Below are positions 50,288 to 57,615 of a stretch of DNA of 64,000 nucleotides, in pieces. The notes under the pieces were generated by a model that was not told the DNA's origin, did no database searches, and was given only the letters and a program-made list of their open reading frames with translations. The DNA is from Yinghuangia seranimata (lineage in GTDB: Bacteria; Actinomycetota; Actinomycetes; Streptomycetales; Streptomycetaceae), in assembly GCF_029953285.1 (NCBI RefSeq), contig NZ_JASAOI010000006.1, positions 62,001 through 126,000 of the forward strand, read 5' to 3'. Each line of letters begins with the position of its first letter. The first letter of the stretch is position 1. Position numbers and translations under genes: made by a program.

Positions 50288-50782
50288 GTGCCGAATCACG
50301 CGCCGGACGACGTGCTGGCCCACATCGAGCGCGAATGCATGGTCCTGGCCCGGCACCAGGTGATGGTCAACCGCAACGTCGAGGGCCGGCCGCTGGAACG
50401 CTCGGCCTACCTCCTCATCAGCCGCCTCGAGGCCGAGGGGCCGATGTCCATCGGGCAGCTCGCCGACGCGTTCATGCTCGACACCTCCACCGTCAACCGC
50501 CAGGTCGCGGCCCTGCTCCGCGGCGGCCTCGCCGAACGCATCGTCGACCCCGACGGCGGCCTCGCCCGCAAACTCCGCGCGACCGAGGAGGGCCGCCGCC
50601 GGCTGGCCGCCGACCGCGAGCGCCACCGGCGCGGCCTGGAACGCGTCCTGGCCGACTGGGACGAGCCGGAGCGCCGCGAACTGCTCGACGTCCTCACCCG
50701 GTTCAACCGCTCGATCGAGGACCTCCAGGGGAACGCCTGGCCGCGGCCCGACCTGGCGACGGGGGCCGGGTCGCGCGACTGA
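50288..50782 (+). CDS. MarR-family transcriptional regulator
   Basis: The GTG at 50288 follows GGGAGGA. The 164-residue protein has the MarR winged helix: SAYLLISRLEAEGPMSIGQLADAF (in part), DTSTVNRQVAALLRGGLAERI as recognition helix and wing start, and DPDGGLARKLRATEEGRRRL. It probably represses itself and the divergent exporter through the palindrome at 50103-50137 and is released by a small ligand. Confidence 0.92.
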   Translation: MPNHAPDDVLAHIERECMVLARHQVMVNRNVEGRPLERSAYLLISRLEAEGPMSIGQLADAFMLDTSTVNRQVAALLRGGLAERIVDPDGGLARKLRATEEGRRRLAADRERHRRGLERVLADWDEPERRELLDVLTRFNRSIEDLQGNAWPRPDLATGAGSRD

Positions 50783-54631: not shown

Positions 54632-55648
54632 ATGGCGGCCAAACGGGGGAAGCCGAAGCGGATCGGCATCCGCGACGTCGCGGAGGCCACCGGGCTCTCC
54701 ATCACCACCGTGTCCCACGCCCTCAGCGGCAAGGGCCAGATCGCCCCCGACACCCGCGACCGCGTCCGCGCCGCCGCCGAACGCCTCGGCTACCGCCCCG
54801 ACCCGGTCGCCCGCGGCCTGGTCTCCGGACGTACCGGCATCCTCGGCCTCGCCGTCAGCCACATGGCCGAAGGCCCGTGGGAAGGCACCTACCGGCCCTA
54901 CTACGCGGCGTTCTCGGCCGGCGCCACCATGGCCGCGATCGAACGCGACTACGCCCTCGTCGTCCTCCCCGGCGACCCGGCCTCAGGGCTCTGGTCGCGG
55001 GTCCCCGTCGACGGCCTGATCATCGTCGACCCCGTGCGCGAGGACCCGCTCCTCCTCGACTGCGCCCGCCGCGGCCTGCCCGTCGTCACCGACGGCCGCC
55101 CCATCGACCCCGGCTACGACACCGTCCCCACCGTCGAGAGCGACCTCGCCACGGGCATGCGGGCCATCCTCGACCACCTGTGGGACAGCGGCGGCCGCTC
55201 GATCGCCCTGCTCTCCGGCGCCGAAGCCGACTCGTACACGATGGACTGCGAGGACCTGTACCGCCGTTGGTGCGCCGAACGCGGCACCACCGCCCGCATC
55301 GAAGCCCCCGCCCGCGACGAGGAGCCGGCCGCGGCCGCCCGACGCCTCCTCGACTCCCCGACCCGCCCCGACGCCGTCCACGGCCTCAACGAAACCTACG
55401 GCCAGGCCCTCCTCGTCGCCGCCCGCCGCCTCACCCTCGACATCCCCGGCGACGTCCGTCTCAGCGTCATGAGCGAAACCGCCGCCCCCAAGGACTGGGA
55501 CATCCCCCTCACCGTCCTGAGCCTCGACGCCAAACGCATCGGCGCCGAAGCCGCCAGCCTCCTCATAGACACCCTCGCCGGCACCTCCCGCCGCAACCCG
55601 GTCGTCCCCTGCACGGTGGTGCCTCGCGACTCCACCTTTGCGGGGTAA
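54632..55648 (+). CDS. LacI-family transcriptional regulator
   Basis: The ATG at 54632 follows GAGAGGAG. The 338-residue protein has the LacI headpiece (IRDVAEATGLSITTVSHALS, residues 13-32; hinge GYRPDPVARGLVSGRTG) and a periplasmic-binding-protein-like effector domain. It probably represses itself and the divergent ABC operon through O1 and O2. A LacI regulator over an amino-acid-type importer is less usual than over sugar genes, so the ligand may be an unusual compound. Confidence 0.93.
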   Translation: MAAKRGKPKRIGIRDVAEATGLSITTVSHALSGKGQIAPDTRDRVRAAAERLGYRPDPVARGLVSGRTGILGLAVSHMAEGPWEGTYRPYYAAFSAGATMAAIERDYALVVLPGDPASGLWSRVPVDGLIIVDPVREDPLLLDCARRGLPVVTDGRPIDPGYDTVPTVESDLATGMRAILDHLWDSGGRSIALLSGAEADSYTMDCEDLYRRWCAERGTTARIEAPARDEEPAAAARRLLDSPTRPDAVHGLNETYGQALLVAARRLTLDIPGDVRLSVMSETAAPKDWDIPLTVLSLDAKRIGAEAASLLIDTLAGTSRRNPVVPCTVVPRDSTFAG

Positions 55649-55770
55649 TAGGCGAAATCTCTGCTGTGGGGCGGGTTTTGGCGGAGATAAATTCACTCGC
55701 TCGAACGAATGTGCTGCTGGATGTAGTCGTTCGACTGCGGTGGGTGAAAAGAGCGCCATAGCTTCGCGCC

Positions 55771-56700
55771 ATGGTTACGACCGAACATGAAGGTCTCATC
55801 GACCTGTTCTGTGACGCTCCTGGAGTCGCGCTGAAGGAACTCGCGCTCCAGGGCGCCGCCGTGCAACTCGACTGGGCCGGGCGGGTCGAATCCGCCAACA
55901 TGTCCCAAACCGTGCCGCAGGTGCTGTTCGCGGACGCCGTGATCGTGTACTCGGATCCGCAACGAGTCGCTGGGGCGCCCGAGGTAGCCCTCGTCGTCGA
56001 GGTTCAACGGGGCAAGGACCGACGCAAGTTCATGAGCTGGCCGCAGTACCTGGTCGGTGCGAGGAAGGCGCACAACTGCCGCACGATGCTCTTGGTCGTG
56101 TGCCCGGACCGCGCGACGGCCGAGTGGTGTCGCAAGCCCTACGACACGGGCATCCAGGACTGGCATGCGCTGAAGCCCTGGGTGCTGGGCCCGGACGACG
56201 TCCCGGTCCAGGAAGACCCGGTCGAAGCAGCCCGCAAGCCCTTCGAAACTTTGCTGTCGGGGCTGCTGCACGGATCGGACACCGACCTCGGCAAGCAGGT
56301 GTTCGCGGCACTGGCGGCGGCCATTCGGGCGCTGCCTGACGAGCAAGCGGATAGGTACGCTCGTATCGTCTACAACGCGTCGACTGATGCTGCGAAGTCG
56401 ACCTTTATGGAGGCACTGATGGCGGTAGACCAGCGATTCCCGGCGACCATCTTCGAGGCCTACGCCGAGCAGTTCCGCGACCGGGGCCTGGCTGAGGGGA
56501 AGGCCGAGGGCAAGGCCGAGGGCAGGGTGGAGGGGCAGGCTGTCTCCCTGCTGACCGTGCTCGCGGCCCGTGGCATCGAGGTGACCGACGCCGACCGCGA
56601 GCGCATCATGGCCTGTACCGACCAGGAACTCCTCGACATCTGGATCCAGACGGCTGCCGTGACCGACGCGACGACGGCCGCCGGTCTCCTCGATGGATAG
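55771..56700 (+). CDS. Rpn-like PD-(D/E)XK nuclease-family protein
   Basis: The 309-residue protein starts at the ATG at 55771; a -10-like TAGCTT (55759-55764) sits 7 nt upstream, suggesting leaderless expression. The N-terminal 130 residues show the degenerate PD-(D/E)XK pattern: FADAVIVYSD (Asp55) then EVALVVEVQRGKDRRK (Glu77, Gln79) and WPQYLVGARKAHNCRTMLLVVC. This resembles Rpn/transposase_31 proteins. A helical middle follows, then a Glu/Gly/Lys repeat (EGKAEGKAEGRVEG) and a tail GIEVTDADRERI. An internal in-frame ATG with its own GGAGG lies at 56419. Nuclease activity is inferred, not shown. Confidence 0.65.
   Translation: MVTTEHEGLIDLFCDAPGVALKELALQGAAVQLDWAGRVESANMSQTVPQVLFADAVIVYSDPQRVAGAPEVALVVEVQRGKDRRKFMSWPQYLVGARKAHNCRTMLLVVCPDRATAEWCRKPYDTGIQDWHALKPWVLGPDDVPVQEDPVEAARKPFETLLSGLLHGSDTDLGKQVFAALAAAIRALPDEQADRYARIVYNASTDAAKSTFMEALMAVDQRFPATIFEAYAEQFRDRGLAEGKAEGKAEGRVEGQAVSLLTVLAARGIEVTDADRERIMACTDQELLDIWIQTAAVTDATTAAGLLDG
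56409..56700 (+). other. Internal translation start inside the Rpn-like gene (candidate C-terminal product)
   Basis: GGAGG at 56409-56413 is followed by 5 nt and an ATG at 56419-56421 that is in frame (codon 217). Translation from it would give a 93-residue C-terminal protein beginning MAVDQRFP. In E. coli Rpn genes an internally started C-terminal protein (RpnS) inhibits the full-length nuclease. The arrangement here is analogous; expression is not shown. Confidence 0.5.
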
Positions 56701-56977
56701 CGCGAGGGACATGCTGGAGGCCTATAAGGCGTCCCTGGAACGTATCGGGCTTGGCTTGCCGATGAACATGTTCGAGGCGATCGACCAGCGCGCGGAGTGG
56801 GAGGCGAGCAAGCTGCTCACCACGTTGGAGCTGCGTGGGATCACTGTGACCGATGCCGACAGGGCACGGATCCGTGGCACTTCGGACTACGTGCTGCTGG
56901 ACAGGTGGTTTCGGGTGGCGGTCGTGACACGGATGGCGACCGCTCGTGAGCTCCTTGAGAGCTACTACGACGACTGA
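56693..56977 (+). CDS. Small protein paralogous to the tail of the Rpn-like protein
   Basis: The ATG at 56693 overlaps the preceding stop by 8 nt, so it is translationally coupled. The 94-residue protein matches the last 50 residues of its neighbour at about 27 positions (shared LLTxLxxRGIxVTDADRxRI, then LLDxW and AVT). Its length is almost the same as the candidate 93-residue internal product. It lacks any nuclease part. It may be a stand-alone second copy of the regulatory tail or the remnant of a duplicated gene. No homologous function is known to me. Confidence 0.7.
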   Translation: MDSARDMLEAYKASLERIGLGLPMNMFEAIDQRAEWEASKLLTTLELRGITVTDADRARIRGTSDYVLLDRWFRVAVVTRMATARELLESYYDD

Positions 56978-56989
56978 TGACGTCTGCGA

Positions 56990-57017
56990 GGCCCCGGGTG
57001 TTTTGGCGCCCGGGGCC
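56990..57017. terminator. Terminator after the Rpn-like locus
   Basis: GGCCCCGGGTG (56990-57000) pairs with CGCCCGGGGCC (57007-57017), with one G-U pair, around a 6-nt loop. TTT follows on the plus strand. It can also serve the convergent gene. Confidence 0.75.
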
Positions 57018-57027
57018 TTTGCGTTCG

Positions 57028-57615
57028 TCAGGACGGGGTGTTGGGGGTGGTCGGTTTGTCCTTGGGCGGCTCGGGGGTGGCTGCCTCGTTGTCGGGCTTC
57101 GCGGCGGTGGCGGTGGGGGGCTCGGGGTCGGCCTTGCGGGTGTCGTTGTCGCCGGTGTTCGTGGTCGGCTCGGCGTCTTCGGGCTTTGTGTCGTCCTCGT
57201 TGCTCTTGTCCGCTGCGGCTTCGGCGTTGCCCGGCTGTTCGGTGGGCTTGGCTGGGGGCTCGTCCGCCGGAGTGGTCTCGGCGTCGGCCGGGGCGGGGTC
57301 GAGGTCGTCGTCGAAGTCCTCGTCGAGGTCGTCGTCGTAGTCGTCGTCCTCGTAGTCGTCGTCCGTGCCGGCGCGGAGGGTGCGGAGGCGGGCCGCGCCT
57401 ATGACGACGGCGCCGCCGGCGAGCATGACCACGCCGGCCATCAGGATCGCGGGTTCCTTGCCGGAGGCGCCGGTGTCGGCGAGGACCGGGGCGGGGTCGT
57501 CGTCGAGGGCGGGGAGGGCGTGGACCGTCAACGGTAGGGCGACCGTCAGGGCTCCGGCCGCCATGGCCACCGCCGCGGCGCGCTTGATCGTCCGGGCTGA
57601 CGTCTTCTGCTGCAT
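57028..57615 (-). CDS. Exported membrane protein with LAxTG-like motif and long acidic tail
   Basis: The 195-residue protein has a signal peptide ending near TVHA, only about 15 mature residues, then LADTG, a membrane helix (ILMAGVVMLAGGAVVIGAARL) and a basic RTLR stop. This would be a class E sortase signal (LAxTG), but sorting signals normally end the protein. Here about 115 residues follow, starting with an Asp/Glu run and then Pro/Thr/Asp-rich sequence. The tail would be cytoplasmic if the helix is inserted in the usual direction. Function unknown. Confidence 0.65.
   Translation of the reverse strand: MQQKTSARTIKRAAAVAMAAGALTVALPLTVHALPALDDDPAPVLADTGASGKEPAILMAGVVMLAGGAVVIGAARLRTLRAGTDDDYEDDDYDDDLDEDFDDDLDPAPADAETTPADEPPAKPTEQPGNAEAAADKSNEDDTKPEDAEPTTNTGDNDTRKADPEPPTATAAKPDNEAATPEPPKDKPTTPNTPS

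Follow-up and report, generated by a model that had tools for sequence, protein, structure and literature searches.

The locus studied here raises the question of why an actinobacterial genome should encode the C-terminal tail of a putative nuclease more than once. In the window (the whole stretch of 64,000 nucleotides that was analysed), a long gene on the plus strand (55771 to 56700, stop codon TAG at 56698-56700) encodes a protein of 309 amino acids. Within this gene, an in-frame ATG (56419-56421) is preceded, at a spacing of five bases, by an internal Shine-Dalgarno (SD) motif, GGAGG (56409 to 56413, plus strand), and translation from this codon would yield an intragenic, RpnS-like short protein of 93 amino acids (56419 to 56700, plus strand). 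The end of the long gene overlaps by eight nucleotides (ATGGATAG) with a separate tail gene on the same strand (56693 to 56977), which encodes a protein of 94 amino acids. These elements had been described in a first-pass annotation, and direct reading of the sequence found the long open reading frame (ORF), the GGAGG motif, the internal ATG, and the overlapping small ORF at the same positions. A strong hairpin was predicted just 3' of the tail gene (56979 to 57026, plus strand; MFE -32.8 kcal/mol, z -5.1), which was equalled by one of 200 shuffled sequences, and the terminator-like pattern at 57000-57016 is one of three in the region, compared to 0.8 expected. The hairpin probably marks the end of the operon, so that the long gene and the tail gene are probably located on one transcript that ends there.

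A comparable arrangement has been characterized in E. coli. According to the text of Zhong et al. (2023, PMC10327210), RpnS is encoded within its long gene and again in a second copy located downstream; the tail product binds to the long form and blocks it, and the toxin and antitoxin roles of the two forms were measured. The first-pass annotation had not seen such a layout described, but the same text reports it for E. coli rpnE and rpnC. It also describes the RpnA complex as consisting of two of each form, and reports rpn genes (COG5464) from 34 bacterial phyla. Our best reading, to which we assign a probability of roughly three in four, is that the Rpn-like locus in this actinobacterial window functions in the same way as the RpnL/RpnS toxin-antitoxin systems of E. 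coli (RpnA to RpnE).

Predicted fold of the long protein

The AF2 model of the long protein (pLDDT 88.7) contains a predicted PD-(D/E)XK-like nuclease core (residues 1-163), and the remainder of the protein consists of a hinge with four-residue repeats of the EGKA type and a helical tail. The top VIA match was 2vld (Z 9.1, rmsd 2.8, 101 residues aligned), a repair endonuclease of Pyrococcus, and archaeal NucS/EndoMS enzymes were the top structural neighbours. Among the 50 matches listed, which include NucS/EndoMS, PaqCI, McrBC, Can2, BamHI, FokI, MspJI, and TnsA, only three chains reached a Z of 8; we take these named nucleases to share the PD-(D/E)XK fold. A Foldseek search of the PDB with the long protein yielded nothing at E <= 0.001 (best value 0.093). 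In an alignment of 34 full-length homologues, H6, D55, E77-x-Q79, K86, and Y93 were invariant, among others, and D63, E82, and Q84 are invariant in the four E. coli Rpn proteins. Taken together, the PD-(D/E)XK-like fold proposed at first pass is backed by the AF2 model, by the VIA match to 2vld, and by the presence of the motif residues. The long protein would be a PD-(D/E)XK nuclease, with a predicted fold, an intact motif, and presumably the corresponding activity.

Relationship to Rpn proteins

Profile models did not place the window protein among the Rpn proteins. TIGR01784 and PF04754 gave no match to it, and it thus stays below their curated cut-offs. Over the whole window genome, TIGR01784 gave no match either; it weakly matched seven of the 34 homologues (best E 0.0049), and for PF04754 no match was listed for any of the 34 at E values up to 1. 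DUF4351 (PF14261) matched neither the window proteins nor the window genome, and it matched three of the 34 long relatives (best E 5.1e-5) and three of 40 tails (best E 0.0094). Pfam, NCBIfam, and PADLOC scans gave no credible match for either window protein, with PADLOC returning no match for the long or the 94-residue protein. A match of the small protein to TIGR02293 (E 0.068) was judged to be due to chance. A sequence search of the PDB with the family profile had a best E value of 0.92, to an unrelated protein.

In contrast, profile-profile comparison aligned the family with Rpn from end to end. The family profile, the first alignment of which included members found via the small protein, was compared using hhalign with a profile of seven canonical Rpn proteins (three actinobacterial proteins passing PF04754 and the four of E. 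coli). The result was 98.2% over 284 columns (E 4e-14; this and the following hhalign E values apply to single comparisons), and the alignment runs through the stretch with the D/E-x-Q motif. When the halves were compared separately, the values were 86.8% (E 4.3e-6) for the N half and 97.1% (E 5e-11) for the tail half. Column-shuffled controls, which cover the full profiles and the tails but not the N half, reached at most 0.5% (full profiles, n = 30) and 0.4% (tails, n = 30), and a reversed-profile control reached 14.4%. Against the four E. coli Rpn proteins alone, the value was 49% (E 1.7e-4). A sequence bridge between canonical Rpn and the family of the window protein is formed by the actinobacterial Rpn L246, which exceeds the cut-offs of both PF04754 and DUF4351 (PF14261), while 28 of 75 residues of its tail are identical to a family tail (E 2e-9). 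L246 also resembles the family in having AAGGAGG before a GTG, a feature found at the tail start of all three canonical actinobacterial Rpn genes, but it differs in that its nuclease domain scores with PF04754, which none of the 34 listed family members does at E values up to 1. Because the profiles align end to end with Rpn, but the cut-offs of TIGR01784 and PF04754 are missed, the window protein appears to belong to an Rpn-like family that is unnamed by the models scanned, related to TIGR01784/PF04754 but not a member of them.

The features shared with E. coli RpnL/RpnS are an N-terminal D and E-x-Q, a helical tail, four-residue repeats in the hinge, and an SD motif and start codon just before the tail or repeat helix (KESLM in RpnA, MEALM in the window protein). 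The differences are that the window family is distant in sequence and is missed by both Rpn models, that its SD motif is usually formed by Trp-Arg codons (TGG AGG), and that more residues lie between the internal start and the repeats.

A family-wide footprint at the internal start

The internal start was analysed in 103 family members, representatives at 80% identity of 172 distinct full-length genes, at the alignment column of Met217 of the window protein. A start codon together with an SD motif of at least 5 nt was present in 93 of the 103 members. In 200 shuffles of synonymous codons, the mean number was 11.5 (sd 2.5, maximum 18), and a comparable SD motif preceded only 37 of 992 other in-frame ATG or GTG codons. 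The codon at this column was ATG in 65 members, GTG in 34, TTG in one, and another codon in three. Wherever the column encodes Val, the codon is GTG (34/34), compared to 33% gene-wide. Similarly, Arg three codons upstream was encoded by AGG in 88 of 90 cases and by AGA in the other two, whereas AGG accounts for 9.4% gene-wide. The next highest AGG share among 28 Arg columns was 0.32, and the next highest GTG share among 25 Val columns was 0.75.

The conserved positions are the GGAGG-like bases at -11 to -7 and the start codon (ATG, GTG, or TTG), whereas the spacer varies; the codon directly preceding the start was CTG in 62 members, CTC in 21, and another codon in 20. Among four long genes compared within the window genus, GGAGG is kept although the encoded residues differ: MEALM in the window protein, WRELM in its paralogue, LEAFM in G001, and KEALM in G002. 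The internal start was present in 24 of 25 members with a downstream tail gene and in 69 of 78 members without one. Because start codon and SD motif are present far above expectation and the Arg and Val codons are biased toward AGG and GTG, the codon usage points to selection for initiation at the nucleotide level, from which we infer translation. The internal start noted earlier for the window gene alone is therefore part of a family-wide footprint.

In E. coli, internal starts are used, with RpnA_S starting at Met244 (KESLM), and the rpn genes have an internal promoter too (text of PMC10327210). The hhalign alignment places the internal starts of the family and of canonical Rpn roughly ten residues apart, so that the two starts need not be homologous, although both lie just before the tail helix; the codon evidence is independent of this point.

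A candidate leaderless start of the long gene

The start of the long gene has different properties. An SD motif of at least 5 nt precedes it in only 13 of the 103 members. A TANNNT box beginning 11-15 nt upstream was found in 56 of the 103 (300 shuffles: mean 3.2, maximum 9). In two control sets, both resting on crude ORF starts, TANNNT was present at the same distance in 11 of 213 cases when the first ATGs of other long ORFs were taken and in 121 of 12238 when any ATG in the named loci was counted. It preceded none of the 103 internal starts. In the window, TAGCTT (55759 to 55764, plus strand; -12 to -7 before the ATG) ends 6 nt before the ATG of the long gene and is a -10-like box of a candidate promoter for a leaderless toxin mRNA. 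According to the text of PMC3898074, TANNNT is the -10 box of leaderless mRNAs mapped in mycobacteria, and the text of PMC4681348 gives 264 leaderless mRNAs for S. coelicolor in one study. Because an SD motif is lacking at the long-gene start and a TANNNT box lies just upstream, translation from the toxin start probably proceeds on a leaderless mRNA. The leaderless appearance of the toxin start in many family members is a further difference from E. coli RpnL/RpnS. The leaderless toxin-antitoxin operons of mycobacteria described in PMC3898074 also have a TANNNT box just before the start codon, but in the window it is the putative toxin start that appears leaderless, with the antitoxin nested and preceded by an SD motif.

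The overlapping tail gene and its relatives

The likeness of the 94-residue protein to the tail of the long protein, earlier given as about 27 of 50 positions, was confirmed at a closely similar level using BLASTP (30/58 identical, core 52%, E 4e-14 in a single comparison). Among 172 family tails, that of its own neighbour is the closest, and blastn, at the setting used, detected no remaining similarity between the two at the DNA level. Over the 58-codon core, compared with the tail of the long gene, the first two codon positions (0.64 and 0.66) are better kept than the third (0.48), and the GC contents at the three codon positions are 0.61/0.44/0.83 for the small ORF and 0.71/0.45/0.83 for the long gene. 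The AF2 model of the 94-residue protein is helical (pLDDT 80.7); a structure search with it revealed no significant or meaningful neighbour, and 7th0 (RpnA_S) was absent among the matches listed. Because the SD match before the ATG at 56693 is only 3 nt, initiation at this codon would depend on coupling to the long gene. An alternative start is located at 56704 to 56713 (plus strand), with GAGGG at 56704-56708 and ATG at 56711.

Tail genes recur in relatives. From 208 full-length hits, 172 distinct genes were obtained, 169 of which had at least 450 nt of downstream sequence, and a tail-only ORF was found within 600 nt of 39 of these 169 long genes. By source, a tail ORF was found in 23 of 75 named loci, which came from the best 80 of 392 relatives, and in 16 of 87 survey loci (30 automatic and 60 chosen roughly best first, some already included being skipped); some loci belong to both sets, and neither set was sampled at random. 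The G001 homologue has no tail gene beside it. The other long family gene found in the window genome (L006, G000:C1:265833-267034) is likewise followed by a tail gene of its own, with stop and start codons overlapping in TGATG, and the window copy begins at -5. For 41 tail starts, an exact GGAGG preceded the corresponding start in 11 cases and a TGATG overlap was found in 14, the latter being an upper view, as the scoring favoured starts close to the long-gene stop codon; L125, which is among the 41, has an internal stop codon.

Of 42 tail copies, 24 were closest to their own neighbour among the 172 tails, and identity to the neighbour ranged from 24% to 98%, with L203 and L226 (24-29%) counted among the tail ORFs though possibly of other origin. 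Because so many copies are closest to their own neighbour over such a range of identities, the tail genes are, as judged by sequence, the products of repeated duplication, which is also how the text of Zhong et al. (PMC10327210) explains the downstream copies of rpnC and rpnE. In the sister genome G002, two tandem tail genes follow the long gene (L063, G002:C1:6035270-6036760), and both begin with GGAGGCACTGATG, the sequence that is also found at the internal start of the long gene. The cores of these copies are 97-98% identical to the tail of the long gene, and their hinges are 8 and 4 residues longer. For nine of the 14 overlap loci, the median dN/dS was 0.40 for the copies (range 0.09-0.80) and 0.32 for the long-gene tails (36 pairs each), and in five of the nine, dS between the copy and its own neighbour was lower than dS between that copy and any of the other copies. 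This may reflect gene conversion or duplications that recurred at a single point.

The closest E. coli counterpart is rpnE-ypaA (rpnE_S) of strain K-12, in which, as read here from the sequence (L234:6905-8002), a second tail gene also directly follows the long gene. The ypaA gene repeats the internal SD motif and start of rpnE at the rpnE stop codon and, by eye, has one more four-residue repeat than the rpnE tail; it is annotated as a pseudogene in RefSeq, and its product was detected by Zhong et al. (text of PMC10327210). The window copy differs in that it is old, no longer begins at a copied SD motif and start codon, is without the repeats, and overlaps the 3' end of the long gene. The closer parallel to rpnE-ypaA is the G002 relative.

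Two further observations were made on the tail ORFs. In L065, L069, L073, L075, and L154, the copies look homogenised with their own neighbour tails, although the position of the overlap junction is shared across species. The tail ORFs of L203 and L226 are 29% and 24% identical to their neighbours and 57% identical to each other, and may represent a separate lineage of small genes.

Repeat numbers in tail copies

The lengths of recent copies (core identity at least 0.85) were compared with those of their own neighbour tails, with pairs of tails from different long genes as a control. Net length differed in 16 of 17 copies and in 14 of 22 control pairs (Fisher p 0.052, for pairs that are not independent). 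A non-zero difference in multiples of four was found in 13 of the 17 copy-neighbour pairs and in 8 of the 22 control pairs. Of the 16 mismatched copies, 13 thus differ by a net multiple of four; the remaining three (L066, L069, and L073) also hold gaps of lengths not divisible by four. At a core identity of at least 0.93, the mismatch was found in 13 of 14 copies and in two of three controls. The excess of repeat mismatches in recent copies is suggestive and is regarded as a lead only. In E. coli, neutralization is abolished by one extra four-residue repeat in RpnC (text of PMC10327210). In the 94-residue protein of the window, the repeats are not recognisable, while the neighbouring long gene has them, and the copy may therefore be mismatched with its own toxin.

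Proposed mechanism and alternative explanations

Because the family is related to E. coli Rpn, in which the tail product blocks the long form, a nuclease toxin with a nested antitoxin is the best reading of the mechanism, with toxicity, neutralization, and phage defence proposed by analogy. The helical tail would also be translated alone, from the internal SD motif and ATG (56409-56421), and the resulting 93-residue protein would probably bind the long form and block the nuclease, as in E. coli. A leaderless toxin start combined with a good SD motif for the antitoxin would normally keep the antitoxin in excess. The 94-codon gene would stem from an old duplication of the antitoxin part, and its translation would probably be coupled to termination on the toxin gene; its product, diverged and with the repeats lost, may no longer neutralise its own toxin well.

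Other explanations were weighed against this reading. It is somewhat unlikely that the downstream small gene is a non-functional remnant of tandem duplication and that the intragenic tail alone matters. The small gene follows only a minority of the long genes (39/169), many copies are very recent (in 14 of 42, core identity to the neighbour tail is 93% or more), and L113 has no start within 120 nt, while L125 has a stop inside the chosen frame. However, the window ORF is intact and coding-like, its protein core has stayed 52% identical with no DNA similarity left at the blastn setting used, both long genes of the window genome carry a copy, and the median dN/dS of the copies in nine of the overlap loci is 0.40, compared to 0.32 for long-gene tails, though gene conversion may lower this value. 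The possibility of a sporadic pseudogene, raised at first pass, therefore fits the minority occurrence but not the window ORF, which looks maintained.

Alternatively, the long protein could be a PD-(D/E)XK enzyme of DNA repair or recombination, with the tail product as a structural subunit like Cas11d for Cas10d. This would agree with the archaeal NucS/EndoMS repair nucleases as top structural neighbours and with the first naming of Rpn for recombination, and the Cas10d/Cas11d case is cited in the text of Zhong et al. (PMC10327210). We consider this quite improbable in view of the end-to-end homology with Rpn, a group with measured toxin and antitoxin roles in E. coli, and of the patchy distribution described below. 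The internal motif might, in turn, be kept as a DNA site, as the starting point of duplication or a nuclease cut site, and not for translation. The duplicated unit does begin near the motif in many of 20 loci examined, and the Rpn authors speculate that RpnL helps to make the downstream copies (text of PMC10327210). However, exactly those parts are conserved that initiation needs, while the spacer and the preceding codon vary, the SD motif is kept while the encoded residues change, and the corresponding E. coli starts are in use (text of PMC10327210), so that a DNA site is very unlikely.

The nested toxin-antitoxin reading can be extended, although the extension itself is rather unlikely. A large actinobacterial branch of Rpn would use a dual-initiation switch, in which a leaderless toxin and an SD-dependent antitoxin are translated from the same mRNA. 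The tail genes would then serve not as spare antitoxins but as stores of tails with mismatched repeats, or as competitors, through which the pairing is retuned, and gene conversion would keep some of them in step. Recent copies nearly always differ in length from the tail of their neighbour, mostly by four-residue repeats, and in E. coli RpnC such a change abolishes neutralization. If such a switch existed, weakened SD-dependent initiation, under stress or upon phage attack on the ribosome, would release the toxin.

The text of Zhong et al. (PMC10327210), outside its species figure and supplements, does not contain the terms "Actinobacteri", "Actinomycet", "Streptomyces", or "leaderless", and the literature searched contained no description of the start signals or tail genes of this actinobacterial family. 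New here are the family-wide footprint at the internal start, the SD-poor and TANNNT-preceded start of the long gene, and the recurrent tail genes, some of which copy the internal start. The proposed reading would extend nested Rpn toxin-antitoxin systems to Streptomyces and relatives, in a family unnamed by the models scanned, and would provide codon-level evidence that a nested antitoxin start is under selection far from E. coli. It also offers a testable switch between leaderless and SD-dependent initiation, and recent antitoxin duplications with changed repeat numbers would be a natural series for testing the E. coli pairing rule.

Distribution and genomic context

At least 162 of the 394 genomes from the window's taxonomic family contain a member of the Rpn-like family, a lower bound because at most six candidates were scored per genome. 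The Rpn-like family was also found in 5 of 296 genomes sampled across the phylum, including the window's own genome, and the canonical model TIGR01784 matched three of the same 296 at E 1e-5. An initial search of genome contigs with the window protein found no relative. No homologue was detected in 50,697 phage records at E 1e-5, and 72,556 plasmid records contained two, on replicons of 2.7 and 11.9 Mb.

The GC content of 200-base steps is 0.57-0.69 in window 55600-57000 and mostly 0.70-0.76 on either side (0.69 at 57600), and GC3 is 0.83 in both genes, compared to 0.93-0.94 in three neighbours. Because of these lower values, the segment 55600-57000 was probably acquired. The proteins of four window neighbours were absent from the examined flanks of the G001 and G002 homologues and of the paralogue in the window genome, and of nine proteins tried against the surroundings of the YibE/F orthologues in G001 and G002, YibE/F alone gave a match. 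A Pfam scan of eight neighbouring stretches gave matches for six, none of them a defence gene by its match, with one stretch (50317-50782) cut out of frame and thus uninformative. On the minus strand at 57028-57615, an ORF of 195 amino acids without a Pfam match contains LADTG ahead of a hydrophobic segment and basic residues, a pattern that we take to indicate, perhaps, a sortase-type surface protein.
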